Shown here: piece by piece, positions 876 through 25,730 of the stretch
How the letters are laid out: each line of letters begins with the position of its first letter
Position numbering within the stretch: position 1 is the first letter of the stretch
Source of the DNA: Oscillospiraceae bacterium
GTDB taxonomy: Bacteria > Bacillota > Clostridia > Oscillospirales > Oscillospiraceae
Assembly: GCA_017461445.1 (NCBI GenBank)
Contig: JAFTXW010000020.1
Span: 1-53,783, forward strand
Reading direction: 5' to 3'
DNA length: 53,783 nt
Made by a program: the position numbers and the translations under genes
Notes under the pieces: generated by a model
Databases searched by the model: none
Seen by the model: the letters and a program-made list of their open reading frames with translations, nothing else
Told to the model about the DNA's origin: nothing

Positions 876-964
876 TTGAAAAATTGAAAATTGAAAGTTG
901 AAAATTGAAAGTTGGGGATTATCTTCGACATAATTTTCAATTTTCAATTTTACATTTTCAATTT
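876..964. repeat. Inverted heptad array pair without a gene (empty slot) between ybaB and recR
   Basis: The left arm (876-914) repeats TTGAAAA/G units with a 7-bp period. The right arm (933-964) carries the complementary TTTTCAA units with one irregular unit. The short interior holds ATTAT...ATAAT around CTTCGAC, a small hairpin of its own. The right arm begins a few bases after the ybaB stop, and the left arm ends at the recR ribosome binding site. RNA from the operon would fold this into a long imperfect hairpin. The architecture matches 3035-3137. Confidence 0.8.
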
Positions 965-965
965 A

Positions 966-1313
966 TCAGAACAGTCCGCCCAGGTTCAGGCCGCCGGTCA
1001 GCCGGGACATATTGTTGGCTGCCTCCGCGTCCGCGGCACGCATGGCCTCGTTGACAGCGGCGATGACCATGTCCTGCAGCATCTCCACATCATCGGGATC
1101 CACAGCCTCGGGGTTGATCTCCAGATTCACCAGCTCATGCTTGCCGTTGACGGTAGCGGCCACCATGCCGCCGCCAGCCTTGGCAGTGAAGGTTTTTGCC
1201 TCCTGCTCCTGCTGCATCCGCAGCATCTCCTGCTGCATCTTCTGGGCTTGCTTCATCATAGCAGCCTGATTCATACCACCGGGCATACCGCCCCGGAATC
1301 CACCTTTTGCCAT
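966..1313 (-). CDS. YbaB/EbfC family nucleoid-associated protein
   Basis: This 115-residue protein belongs to the YbaB/EbfC family of small dimeric DNA-binding proteins, usually encoded between dnaX and recR as here. After a glycine/methionine-rich start comes a long helix rich in Q, M and K (about 14-42). The family core follows (VAATVNGKHELVNLEINPEA, then an acidic helix). Length and order are typical. It is probably cotranscribed with dnaX (59-bp gap) and recR. The molecular role in this lineage is not settled: nucleoid organisation is known, while a link to RecR-type repair is inferred from gene order. Confidence 0.93.
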   Translation of the reverse strand: MAKGGFRGGMPGGMNQAAMMKQAQKMQQEMLRMQQEQEAKTFTAKAGGGMVAATVNGKHELVNLEINPEAVDPDDVEMLQDMVIAAVNEAMRAADAEAANNMSRLTGGLNLGGLF

Positions 1314-3034: not shown

Positions 3035-3137
3035 TGAGTTGAGAGTTGAAAGTTGAAAATTGAAAGTTAAGGTGTCACTTCGTGACGATTTGAAAGTGAA
3101 GAAAATTTTCAACTTTCAATTTTCAACTTTCAACTTA
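3035..3137. repeat. Inverted heptad array pair without a gene (empty slot) upstream of dnaX
   Basis: A 25-bp arm at 3044-3068 is perfectly complementary to 3111-3135. Both are made of TTGAAAG/TTGAAAA heptads. The 42-bp interior contains a small hairpin (GTCAC 3074-3078, TTC, GTGAC 3082-3086). The array lies between the 3' end of the SRP RNA gene and the dnaX ribosome binding site. Its arms match those around the four-helix-bundle gene at 22111-22527 almost base for base. Confidence 0.85.
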
Positions 3138-3147
3138 ATAAAAACGT

Positions 3148-3444
3148 CCGGCTCATAACAAGATCGCACACCCACATTTGAACAAACCGGGCATCCGTAC
3201 CGGCGCAGCCAGCTCAAGAACGGCAACCCCGCGGCACACGAGAAGATCCGCTTAATGCTGCTTGGTTCCCCACCTGACATGGTTCACGGGATCTCGTTGC
3301 GCAGGACCATCCTCTCAACACCGCTTACGCGGGTCAGACAATGCCCTAAGTTTGTCCGGGTGTGGGAATTCATCCCTGCTGTAGCGGATTGCAGGTACAG
3401 GGCACCGCTATCTCCCCGACTAGTGCGACCTTGTTATAAGCCGG
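3148..3444 (-). ncRNA. ffs: Signal recognition particle RNA, large bacterial type
   Basis: This is the RNA scaffold of SRP, which binds Ffh and targets nascent membrane proteins. The ends pair over 21 bp (3424-3444 with 3148-3168, starting CCGGCTTATAACAAGG). The 5' part has the Alu-domain signature CTAGTCGGGGAGATAGCGG. Domain IV is the GTCAGGTGGGGAACCAAGCAGC-like hairpin at about 3257-3282. About 297 nt is the size of the Alu-containing SRP RNA of Firmicutes, not the short 4.5S form. It sits between acpP and dnaX on the same strand. Confidence 0.93.
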
Positions 3445-20871: not shown

Positions 20872-22092
20872 TCATAAATTCACCGCACATCCCGCCGCGT
20901 AAGCTGTGGCCCAGGCGATTTGCAGGTTGAAGCCGCCGGTATAGGCATCGCAGTCGATGACCTCTCCCGCGAAGTACAGCCCGGTTACCTTCTTGGATTC
21001 CATAGTCTTGGGGTCGATCTCGGAGACCTTCACGCCGCCGGAGGTGATGATGGCCTCCGCCACGGGCCGCTTCCCGGTGATCTCCACAGTGAAGTTTTTC
21101 AAAAGTTCCACCAACGCCCGCCGCTTCTGCTTTGTCAGGGAATTTGCCTGCATGGCGGGGTCGATTTCCAGCCGCCGCAGCACCACTGGGATCATAGACC
21201 GGGGCAGCAGGTCAATGAGGGCATTCTCCATAGCCCGGTTCTGGTACATATCCAGGTCCCGCAGGATGCGGTCGTCCAGCTTGCCTTCCTCCAGGGCGGG
21301 CTTCAGGTCGATGACCAGACGGCAGTTCTCGCCTTTTAAGTGGCAGCTGGCGGAGAGCACCGTGGGGCCGGAGACGCCGAAGTGAGTAAACAGCAGCTCC
21401 CCAAAGTCCTTATAGAGCACCTTTCCCTTGGCGTTCAGCAGCTTCACACCCACATTCCGAAGGCTAAGGCCCTGCATCTCCTGGCAGTCCCTTCCCGCCG
21501 TTTCCAGGGGAACAAGGCTTCCCTGGGGGGCGATAATGGTATGTCCCAGCTTTTCGGCCATGGCATAGCCGTCGCCGGTGGAGCCGGTGGTGGGATAGGA
21601 CGCACCGCCCGTCGCGAGGATCACCCATTTTGCAGCAATTTTCTCATTCTGTGTCTCCACCCCGGAAACATGCCCATCCTCTGTCAGGATGCCTTTCACC
21701 CGTGCGGTTTTCACCGTCACCTTTTGGCGGCGCATTTCCTTTTGCAGACAGTCCAGGATGGACTGGGCCTTGTCCGTCACCGGAAACACCCGGTTGCCCC
21801 GCTCAGTTTTCAGGGCACAGCCCCGTTCCTCAAAAAAGGCTTTGGTCTTTTCCGGAGGAAAGGCCGTCATGGCACTGTACAAAAACCGCCCGTTCCGGGG
21901 CGTATTCTGCAAAACCTCCTGGGCGGTACAGTCATTGGTCACGTTACAGCGGCCCTTGCCGGTGATCAGCAGCTTCTTGCCCAAACGGTCGTTTCGCTCC
22001 AAAAGCAGCACCCTGGCACCCCGCTCCGCCGCCGCAATAGCCGCAAACATCCCAGCAGGCCCGCCGCCGATGATAATTCCGTCGTAGTTCAT
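20872..22092 (-). CDS. HI0933/BaiN-like flavoprotein (NAD(P)/FAD-dependent oxidoreductase)
   Basis: A 406-residue flavoprotein with an N-terminal Rossmann FAD site (IIIGGGPAGMFAAIAAAERG), the family signature GKKLLITGKGRCNVTN (about 38-53), ATGGASYPTTGSTGDGY and a closing FAGEVIDCDAYTGGFNLQ. The family includes BaiN, reported to reduce bile acid intermediates in gut Clostridia, but most members are uncharacterised. It should not be called BaiN from sequence alone. The start at 22092 follows GGGAGGTTTT. The four-helix-bundle cassette lies immediately upstream, between this gene and rpiR. Confidence 0.88.
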   Translation of the reverse strand: MNYDGIIIGGGPAGMFAAIAAAERGARVLLLERNDRLGKKLLITGKGRCNVTNDCTAQEVLQNTPRNGRFLYSAMTAFPPEKTKAFFEERGCALKTERGNRVFPVTDKAQSILDCLQKEMRRQKVTVKTARVKGILTEDGHVSGVETQNEKIAAKWVILATGGASYPTTGSTGDGYAMAEKLGHTIIAPQGSLVPLETAGRDCQEMQGLSLRNVGVKLLNAKGKVLYKDFGELLFTHFGVSGPTVLSASCHLKGENCRLVIDLKPALEEGKLDDRILRDLDMYQNRAMENALIDLLPRSMIPVVLRRLEIDPAMQANSLTKQKRRALVELLKNFTVEITGKRPVAEAIITSGGVKVSEIDPKTMESKKVTGLYFAGEVIDCDAYTGGFNLQIAWATAYAAGCAVNL

Positions 22093-22110
22093 AAAACCTC
22101 CCGGTTTTGT

Positions 22111-22140
22111 AGTTGAAAGTTGAAAATTGAAAATTGAAAA
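22111..22140 (+). repeat. Left 30-bp inverted repeat of the four-helix-bundle cassette (heptad array)
   Basis: Built from TTGAAAG/TTGAAAA heptads. It matches the reverse complement of 22498-22527 at 29 of 30 positions. It sits directly against the stop codon of the four-helix-bundle gene and 18 bp before the flavoprotein start codon. Confidence 0.9.
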
Positions 22141-22488
22141 TTAGTTTTTGATCGTCTTTACAATAGAAACTAAAATCTTTTCAATTTCAACGCAATCTCC
22201 AATTATCGAGTCATATTCCGTCTGCGATAAAAGCTCTGTCGCATTCATCAGACGAAGCCAATATTTTGTTTCTGTCGTTTCCTTCAACGCAATATTTAAC
22301 TTTGAAAGAAAATCCGCTCTGCTCTGCGCCTGCTTGGCTTCCGCTACATTCGCGCCAATGCTTGAGCCCGCACGCAGAAGCTGCTTTGATAATGTGAATT
22401 CTTTTTTATTACCGCACAAATGCCTGTACAAATATACGATGCGAACCGCGAATCGAAAGCTTTTTTCTTCAATAACGTTATTTTCCAT
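22141..22488 (-). CDS. Four-helix-bundle protein (S23/IVP family)
   Basis: A 115-residue helical protein of the family first seen as an open frame in 23S rRNA intervening sequences and related to Avd of diversity-generating retroelements. The segments KSFRFAVRIVYLYRHL, LSKQLLRAGSSIGANVAEA and DFLSKLNIALKETTETKYWLRLM are diagnostic. No reverse transcriptase or rRNA is adjacent. The gene is AT-rich compared with its neighbours and exactly bracketed by 30-bp inverted heptad repeats. No ribosome binding site is visible; the ATG lies about 10 bp after the right array. Function unknown. Confidence 0.9.
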   Translation of the reverse strand: MENNVIEEKSFRFAVRIVYLYRHLCGNKKEFTLSKQLLRAGSSIGANVAEAKQAQSRADFLSKLNIALKETTETKYWLRLMNATELLSQTEYDSIIGDCVEIEKILVSIVKTIKN

Positions 22489-22497
22489 ATCAAATAA

Positions 22498-22528
22498 TTT
22501 TCAACTTTCAATTTTCAACTTTCAACTT
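22498..22528 (-). repeat. Right 30-bp inverted repeat of the four-helix-bundle cassette (heptad array)
   Basis: The complement of 22111-22140 with one mismatch, again in TTGAAAG/TTGAAAA heptads on the minus strand. It overlaps the end of the rpiR-family gene: the last residues KLKVEN and the TGA stop are read from the repeat itself. Confidence 0.9.
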
Positions 22529-23377
22529 CTCATACACGTCGTATTCGTCCCAGATGCGTTCCAGATTGGCAAAGGTTCTGGACAGCTCCTTCTCCCGCTT
22601 TGCGGCCACGGCGACGATGAGGGCGTTGACGATGCTCAGCGGGGCCACCAGGGAATCCACCAGGGAGACCATATCGCTTTTCGCCAGCAGCACATGGTCA
22701 CTGACCTGGCCCAAGGGGGACAGCTGGTTATCCGTAAAGCCGATGACCGTAGCCCCCGCGCTGCGGCAGTATTTGGCCCCTTTGGTGGTGGAGGCGGAGT
22801 ACCGGGGGAAGGAAAAGGCGATGACCACATCCTCCGCGTTCACACCCACGATCCGCTCAAACATCTCCCCCGCACTGGCCCCGGAGATCACATGGACGTT
22901 ATTGAACATATAATTCAGATAATATCCCAAAAAATTCGCCAGCGGGGCCACGGAGCGGACACCCAGAATATAGATACGCTTTGCCTTCAAAATGGCGTTC
23001 ACCGACGCGCTGAAGGCCTCCCGGCTGACGGTCTCCCCGGTCTGGCGCAGCTTTTCCATATCGGAATGGAGCACCGTAGAGATCACGTCCTGGTCGCCGT
23101 AGCGGTCACTGGCTACCTCGATGCGCTGGACGGAGGTGAGCCGGTTTAAGACCATTTCCTGCATGGCCTTCTGCATACTGGGATAGCCGTCAAAGCCCAG
23201 GTCAACGGCGAACCGAACCACCGTGGATTCAGACACCCCCACGGTCTTGCCCAGCTTATTGGCGGTCATAAAAGCGGCCTTGTCGTAGGCCTCGGTGATG
23301 TATTTGGCAATGCGCTTCTGGCCCTTGGAAAATTCCGGGGCCTTCTCCTGCAGGAGCGTTAAAATATCGTGATTCAT
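22508..23377 (-). CDS. RpiR/MurR-family transcriptional regulator
   Basis: A 289-residue regulator with an N-terminal HTH_6 domain (about 1-77; KLGKTVGVSESTVVRFAVDLGF) and a C-terminal SIS sugar-phosphate-binding domain (about 125-255; IYILGVRSVAPLANFLGYYL, VIAFSFPRYSASTTKGAKYC). Such proteins respond to phosphorylated sugars. The start at 23377 follows GGGGAGGGTCAGT, and a promoter lies at 23420-23448. No sugar genes are adjacent, so the target is unclear. The C-terminus KLKVEN and the stop codon come from the heptad repeat, so the original end may have been changed by the insertion. Confidence 0.9.
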   Translation of the reverse strand: MNHDILTLLQEKAPEFSKGQKRIAKYITEAYDKAAFMTANKLGKTVGVSESTVVRFAVDLGFDGYPSMQKAMQEMVLNRLTSVQRIEVASDRYGDQDVISTVLHSDMEKLRQTGETVSREAFSASVNAILKAKRIYILGVRSVAPLANFLGYYLNYMFNNVHVISGASAGEMFERIVGVNAEDVVIAFSFPRYSASTTKGAKYCRSAGATVIGFTDNQLSPLGQVSDHVLLAKSDMVSLVDSLVAPLSIVNALIVAVAAKREKELSRTFANLERIWDEYDVYEKLKVEN

Positions 23378-23419
23378 ACTGACCCTCCCCAGCGGCCTGT
23401 GCCGCAGCGATACATTCAA

Positions 23420-25699: not shown

Positions 25700-25730
25700 T
25701 TTTCAACTTTCAACTTTCAATTTTCAACTC
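25700..25730. repeat. Single heptad array between gerW and the small membrane protein
   Basis: About four TTGAAAA/TTGAAAG heptads on the minus strand. The gerW stop codon TGA is the first TTGA of the array, and the next gene's ribosome binding site follows at once. There is no inverted second arm. The unit sequence is the same as at 3035-3137 and 22111-22527. Confidence 0.8.

Follow-up and report, generated by a model that had tools for sequence, protein, structure and literature searches.

The gene for a four-helix-bundle protein of the S23 (23S rRNA IVP) type in the window, that is, in the whole 53,783-nt stretch of Oscillospiraceae DNA analysed here, probably belongs to an inserted mobile element of the intervening sequence (IVS) kind, in which the gene lies between terminal inverted repeats of about four tandem heptads. 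We put the probability of this reading at roughly three in four. It follows from a site that was empty in 27 of 27 relatives, the heptad arrays in S23 flanks compared with control ORFs, the matched arms, the variants at a second site beside dnaX, the RNA folds, a low dN/dS and a parallel in Coxiella burnetii. Taken together, the comparisons suggest that a family of very small mobile elements, akin to the inserts by which the rRNA of some bacteria is split, has been overlooked.

The genes of the locus are read on the minus strand in the order rpiR, right arm, S23 gene, left arm, ribosome-binding site and flavoprotein gene. The features, by window position, are as follows.

20872..22092, minus strand: HI0933-like flavoprotein gene, the downstream neighbour, which directly follows rpiR in relatives
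22093..22110, minus strand: ribosome-binding region, from the element to the flavoprotein start (read by eye)
22111..22142, plus strand: left terminal arm, with heptads TTGAAAG TTGAAAA TTGAAAA TTGAAAA at 22113-22140; with respect to operon transcription, this is the downstream arm
22141..22488, minus strand: S23 / 23S rRNA-IVP-type four-helix-bundle gene, 115 aa, PF05635, between the arms
22496..22527, minus strand: right terminal arm, four heptads at 22498-22525, encoding the last rpiR codons (LKVEN) and the stop
22508..23380, minus strand: rpiR (SIS + HTH_6), the upstream neighbour, its last codons replaced by the insertion

The inverted heptad repeats that the earlier note had described around the S23 gene are real. 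The arms, at 22111-22146 and 22492-22527, were 36 nt long, 94% complementary and spaced by 345 nt, each made of four TTGAAAR heptads, and the whole element measured 417 nt. In a profile search the S23 product matched PF05635 (23S_rRNA_IVP) with an E value of 4.8e-28 and 97.9 bits, against a curated cut-off of 33.8; 2RLD (E 5e-51, profile A1) and 2GSC are solved homologues. S23 was the sole ORF of at least 60 aa located entirely between the arms, in agreement with the claim that they enclose this gene only, and a long antisense ORF (22148-23149) passes through the region. It was likewise correct that the right arm provides the end of rpiR and that the left arm adjoins the next ribosome-binding site, since the residues LKVEN and the stop are arm-encoded and the left arm sits just before the ribosome-binding site of the flavoprotein gene.

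When the flavoprotein was used as a query against 60 relatives of the same genus and the best 29 loci were fetched, an rpiR match was present beside the flavoprotein gene in 27 of them and absent beside it in two. In all 27 relatives with both neighbours the rpiR match ended 2-48 nt before the flavoprotein start or overlapped it, and no S23 gene was found between the two genes in any of these 27 fetched relatives. Because rpiR stood at or near the flavoprotein gene with no S23 gene in all 27, the S23 element at the window locus is, by this comparison, an insertion; the search for rpiR-flavoprotein neighbours without the insert, which had been proposed as a check, thus returned 27 empty sites out of 27. 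RpiR of the relatives ended in YEKQVE or a similar sequence, directly before or overlapping the flavoprotein start, and the codons following YEK in the window rpiR come from the arm. The proposal of a small cassette inserted in an operon was therefore upheld as regards insertion, but not as regards a landing between an existing stop codon and the next gene, the last RpiR codons having been replaced. In a near relative (L070) the 48-nt junction between rpiR and the flavoprotein gene carried a single array of another heptad-like sequence, as judged by eye. At the S23 site the relatives are too diverged for a target duplication to be read.

Heptad arrays were not confined to this locus. With up to one mismatch, TTGAAARTTGAAAR occurred 19 times in the window, compared with 0.04 expected from dinucleotide shuffles, at 884-947, 3039-3133, 22113-22140, 22498-22525 and 25700-25727, and the S23 arm pair was one of three inverted pairs. 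The exact sequence was present 178 times in the 2.66-Mb genome, against 23 times for the reversed pattern. Besides the S23 element the following features of the window were recorded.

881..967: another short copy that has heptad arms and no gene; 6 of 10 relatives have little or nothing at this place
3036..3136: gene-less short copy (MITE-like) with arms 3039-3066 and 3106-3133, between dnaX (start by eye) and the SRP RNA gene
3164-3428: SRP RNA
25700..25727, minus strand: single heptad array with no recognisable partner

A sample of 35 stretches, picked from the first 100 of the 178 TTGAAARTTGAAAR matches, was read together with the window. Adjacent arrays less than 400 nt apart were in the order TTGAAAR...YTTTCAA in 22 of 22 cases, one of which was the same site on a redundant contig, leaving 21 distinct pairs. 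The pairs enclosed 9-211 nt, with the exception of the S23 copy, which encloses 357. Gene-less short copies were more numerous than S23 copies in the stretches read, and many shared a common interior of two small hairpins, about GGTRTCGCTTCGCGA...CCCCGAAGGGGATACC by eye. A further 27 arrays were classed as single, several of them with a degenerate partner recognisable by eye. Two arrays that enclose a phage-like gene at a distance of 952 nt (L038) were considered as a second cassette and probably do not form one, the minus array having a degenerate partner of its own about 40 nt away. The assembly is partly redundant, the same sites being found on contigs C24 and C46 (L045, L065) and on C24 and C43 (L045, L063), one of them reverse-complemented.

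Our best reading of the wider comparison is that S23-encoding, heptad-ended mobile elements are widespread and that rRNA IVSs appear to be one form of them. The survey behind it used 148 of 155 S23 loci; five genes, all from the phylum-wide set, were not relocated and two loci had short flanks. An array was defined by period 7 with at least 20 of 28 self-matches, and inverted complementarity by a score of 16 or more. Arrays of period 7 were present on both sides of S23 at 100 of the 148 loci and on at least one side at 132, while periods 5, 6, 9 and 10 were never seen and period 8 at one locus. Arrays on both sides and on either side were found, respectively, at 26 and 32 of 32 loci in the genus set (the 29 top-ranked S23 matches of other genomes and the window genome's own three), at 12 and 13 of 14 in the plasmid set (14 of 28 records with a match, mostly the best ranked), at 53 and 72 of 78 named GTDB loci (drawn from the best 80 of at least 581 confirmed), and at 9 and 15 of 24 loci in a phylum-wide draw. 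Inverted complementarity was found at 19 of these last 24, and their shortfall in two-sided arrays counts against the best reading.

Across all loci the flanks showed inverted complementarity at 131 of 148, compared with 19% of swapped flank pairs, and direct similarity at 48 of 148. Control ORFs from the same loci had a left array in 13, a right array in 14 and both in 3 of 138 cases, with inverted complementarity in 10 and direct similarity in 17 of 138. Heptad sequence varied between S23 loci, and the arms of a locus mostly agreed: left and right heptads matched in at least 6 of 7 letters at 85 of the 100 two-array loci, against 14% of swapped pairs. The plasmid two-array loci count against the best reading here, since the heptads agreed in just 7 of 12. 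When the left heptads were read inwards, the triplet A-purine-T was present in 91 of 100, compared with 59% of letter shuffles and 52 of the reverse complements. Among the 78 named loci an array occurred on at least one side under each of ten phylum labels, seven of which were represented by one or two loci each; inverted complementarity was absent at the single Gemmatimonadota locus.

These counts bear on the possibility that the arrays are neutral, slippage-prone intergenic repeats whose position around S23 is incidental. Intergenic heptads are indeed described as over-represented in Nostoc and Xanthomonas in the part of PMC4692102 available to us, and the window genome holds many arrays, but all 22 near pairs were inverted, arrays were enriched around S23 over control ORFs, and the arms agreed within a locus. 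We therefore strongly disfavour this explanation and give it next to no credence; the inverted order, the matched arms and the control ORFs speak against chance or simple slippage as the cause. The search for paired, inverted arrays that the earlier note had called for thus had a positive outcome, both in the 22 near pairs and in the same layout of inverted heptads and S23 at other sites and in other phyla.

Within the genus an S23 match was found in 82 of 121 genomes. The fetched loci of other genomes had inverted flank complementarity in 29 of 29 cases and arrays on both sides in 25 of 29, and they occupied several different sites, which from the translations of the neighbouring genes we take to be ruvC-like/ruvA, ruvA-like/ruvB, upstream of dnaX, upstream of hemW and beside tRNA-Leu. 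Their heptads varied (AATTGAA, AATTGAC, AGTTGAG, AGTTGAT, AGTGGAG and AATTAAG). The window genome has three S23 genes, and the other two (L002, L003) count against the reading, with a one-sided array, no matched inverted arms and an inverted score of 10. Plasmid loci came from cyanobacteria, Bacteroidota, Chloroflexota, Spirochaetota and Bacillota, with inverted complementarity at 14 of 14, and several of these elements lay within defence clusters such as hsd and cas2|cas1. The positions were within cas2|cas1 in two cyanobacteria, within hsdS|hsdR in Monoglobus and within drmD|pglX in Planktothrix (L131, L135, L128, L139). A 23S rRNA IVP is among the domains drawn in the figure legend of a CRISPR survey (PMC10910872, seen in part). 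At the S23 gene of a Nostoc plasmid (L134) the flanks were long and inverted (score 44) but had no period 7, being of the TTGCGAATTGCG... type, possibly a variant kind of end. The idea of a gene cassette is thus sound as to the arrangement, with the refinement that S23 recurs as a component of the element and is no arbitrary cargo.

Among known systems the S23-bearing IVS in the 23S rRNA of C. burnetii is similar in several respects. According to the accessible portion of PMC4990558, it is 428 nt long, with an S23 ORF, a 28-bp terminal stem, GACAGAT heptads as direct repeats at the 5' end and a patchy distribution, and RNase III excises it at the stem in vitro. The window element resembles it in size (417 nt), in the S23-family ORF, in pairing terminal inverted repeats, in heptads and in patchiness, and so has the S23 ORF in a short insert with pairing ends that characterises an IVS. 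Unlike the Coxiella IVS it lies in a protein-coding operon, in the gap between rpiR and the flavoprotein gene, and not in a 23S rRNA helix; the family also has heptad arrays on both arms, many gene-less copies and heptads that differ from locus to locus, features set against what that source describes in the same portion. Heptamers at the ends occur in the window element and are reported for the Coxiella IVS, though they are not known as a defining trait of the IVS family, and the Coxiella unit GACAGAT has the A-purine-T triplet on neither strand.

The other resemblance is to STRR-type repeats. GGGAATC in Xanthomonas and GGGGAYT in Nostoc are over-represented between genes, and the Xanthomonas arrays mostly have four units and form 70 convergent pairs in one genome and 75 in another (PMC4692102, in part); TAACTGA heptads occur in Beggiatoaceae and cyanobacteria (PMC4679880, in part). 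Such repeats have been treated, in the sections of the two papers available, as quadruplex-forming or as possible translational-control sequences, and a term search of both main texts found no mention of S23. Measured against these partly seen descriptions, our elements share tandem heptads between genes. The arrays, their usual four units and their convergent pairing were thus already known from Xanthomonas, without an S23-element explanation in what could be consulted of PMC4692102. Around S23 on cyanobacterial plasmids, Nostoc included, the heptads were other than the published STRR ones. The likeness in heptads that the earlier note had drawn with cyanobacterial STRRs therefore stands, with the refinement that 23S rRNA IVSs, and not those STRRs alone, are the nearest of the known systems. 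Some repeats described as STRR are probably derivatives of S23-heptad elements. A search of the open-access literature gave no link between S23 genes outside rRNA and heptad arms.

The RNA of the window element had a predicted fold of -128.8 kcal/mol (z -6.3) in which a stem longer than 30 bp brackets the S23 gene, and five short copies gave z values from -5.4 to -8.8. Going by these models, a long stem like that of 23S rRNA intervening sequences should form in the transcripts. By analogy with those, RNase III might trim the stem, and its trimming from the mRNA would allow the insert to be tolerated inside an operon. The S23 protein may recognise the heptad ends, as DNA or as RNA, and could be needed for the spread or maintenance of both full and gene-less copies.

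The relation between gene-bearing and gene-less copies was seen most directly at the dnaX/SRP RNA site (window 3036-3136), where nine relatives with both flanks were compared by eye. The element was absent in G046, G047 and G057. G018 had a complete S23 element at this place, and G037 a collapsed remnant in which the opening and closing codons of S23 stand between heptads. G043 and G058 had short copies with other heptads, and G002 and G049 other sequence. The sequence in G002 (L264) is a different short repeat, TCATTGCGAGGAGCGCAGC..., and the gap between dnaX and the SRP RNA gene therefore gathers several kinds of small elements.

In a survey of the short-copy interior, 9 of 29 genomes matched and 30 of 47 matches were used, 18 of them with both arms scored. 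Copies with one shared interior bore different heptads, even within one genome, and the two arms of a copy agreed in 17 of the 18, compared with 19 of 44 cross pairs from the same genome. Interior and arms therefore evolve differently, and the arms change together. Candidate routes for such a joint change are template switching between the arms and simultaneous renewal of the two ends. The heptad type of the short copies was that of the genome's S23 elements only in part, which counts against the best reading; one type per genome for both kinds of copy was considered and is only partly true, G018 having AATGCAG and AGTTGAT-like copies. In G113 at least five types occurred, of which two were each observed on a single arm. 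Interior matches with no heptad arms numbered four in G016 and one in G055. Those in G016 (L323, L332, L336, L341) consist of part of the interior between AAGTGAAGT-like repeats whose spacing is different, with no heptad arrays.

With terminal inverted repeats, no transposase and many dispersed intergenic copies, the gene-less copies resemble MITEs. Their ends differ from those of MITEs in being tandem heptads that vary between copies with the same interior, there was no clear target-site duplication by eye at 881-967 or 3036-3136 against the empty sites in relatives, and no transposase partner was found among the Y1 family tested. A 4-base overlap of the aligned flanks at 881-967, in G041, G046 and G057, was indistinguishable from heptad letters. 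The elements could nevertheless be ordinary MITEs moved in trans by an unrelated transposase, with S23 a captured passenger in some of them. We consider this unlikely: S23 and rarely another gene stands between arrays (100/148 against 3/138 other ORFs), and target duplications were not clear at the two sites examined, even though the gene-less copies outnumber the S23 copies in the stretches read.

The distribution of the arrays bears on the same question. RTTGANA arrays were found in 66 of 82 same-genus genomes with S23 and in 13 of 39 without (Fisher 1.1e-6, kinship ignored). Counting against an association, 16 of the 82 S23 genomes had no match to the pattern and 7 of the 39 S23-less genomes had at least four; G005, with 192 array matches and no S23 match at 78% completeness, fits the passenger explanation. 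Any Y1 match, weak ones included, was commoner with arrays (53/79 against 17/42, Fisher 0.007), which again favours that explanation. Against it, strong Y1 matches were not associated with arrays (14 of 79 genomes with arrays, 6 of 42 without), and G113, which is 97% complete and has S23 and 167 array matches, gave no match to Y1 transposases and none to RVT_1 reverse transcriptases. No Y1 match was present in 3 of the 14 most array-rich genomes, and the window genome (G000) had one weak match. G113 counts against both a Y1/RAYT enzyme and an RVT_1 reverse transcriptase as general requirements, while the association with any Y1 match remains. In the two families searched, Y1 transposase and RVT_1, no enzyme moving the S23-heptad elements was found.

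The S23 protein also gave a weak match to the bAvd profile of diversity-generating retroelements (E 2.4e-4). The score was 22 bits against a cut-off of 40, and the window genome (91% complete) had no RVT_1 match, so the reverse transcriptase partner of such a retroelement was missing from it.

S23 was under purifying selection in two closely related pairs, as seen in their low dN/dS values (0.07 and 0.13); these were the closest of the seven pairs compared, and the other five were saturated at synonymous sites. A tree of the 80 named loci and the window S23 mixed phyla, with 18 label changes where the least possible was 10, and its well-supported branches forced at least five label changes for Bacteroidota; with few columns and many weak forks, this mixing is no proof of transfer. 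Some clades within the genus followed the site, which indicates that copies are also passed on where they stand and counts against fresh insertion at some sites.

Purifying selection, the very stable predicted stems, sites that are often gene junctions, and an S23 gene ending within a few nucleotides of the right array in 24 of 30 genus loci with that array would also be expected if the inverted arrays were host-kept elements acting in RNA processing or translation control, S23 being their domesticated partner and nothing being mobile. Against this stand the patchy distribution and the empty sites, the variable heptads, the scattered gene-less copies and, subject to the limits of the tree, the mixing of phyla, which make it highly improbable. 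The mobility that the earlier note had proposed for the heptad-ended cassette is favoured by the empty sites, the paired inverted arrays and the recurrence across phyla, evidence which is comparative, insertion and excision themselves being unseen.

A more far-reaching form of the mobile-element reading is possible, and we hold it tentatively, with more doubt than confidence. Here the elements would form a class of autonomous mobile elements found across phyla, with no conventional transposase, S23 directing their mobility. The rRNA IVSs would be copies that landed in rRNA, and the STRRs of cyanobacteria, Xanthomonas and Beggiatoaceae gene-less descendants. The arms would be renewed as a matched pair, either by template switching between them or through heptads added, in the manner of telomeres, at the two 3' ends of a linear intermediate.

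The link with IVSs gives the S23-bearing kind a wider range than was formerly known. The annotation "four helix bundle protein" gains a context, as the coding part of a small element settling at gene junctions and, on plasmids, several times within restriction-modification or CRISPR gene clusters. Spread of so compact an element with no recognised transposase would be a new mechanism. If this is true, the origin of S23-bearing rRNA IVSs and the meaning of intergenic heptad repeats would become a single testable question.
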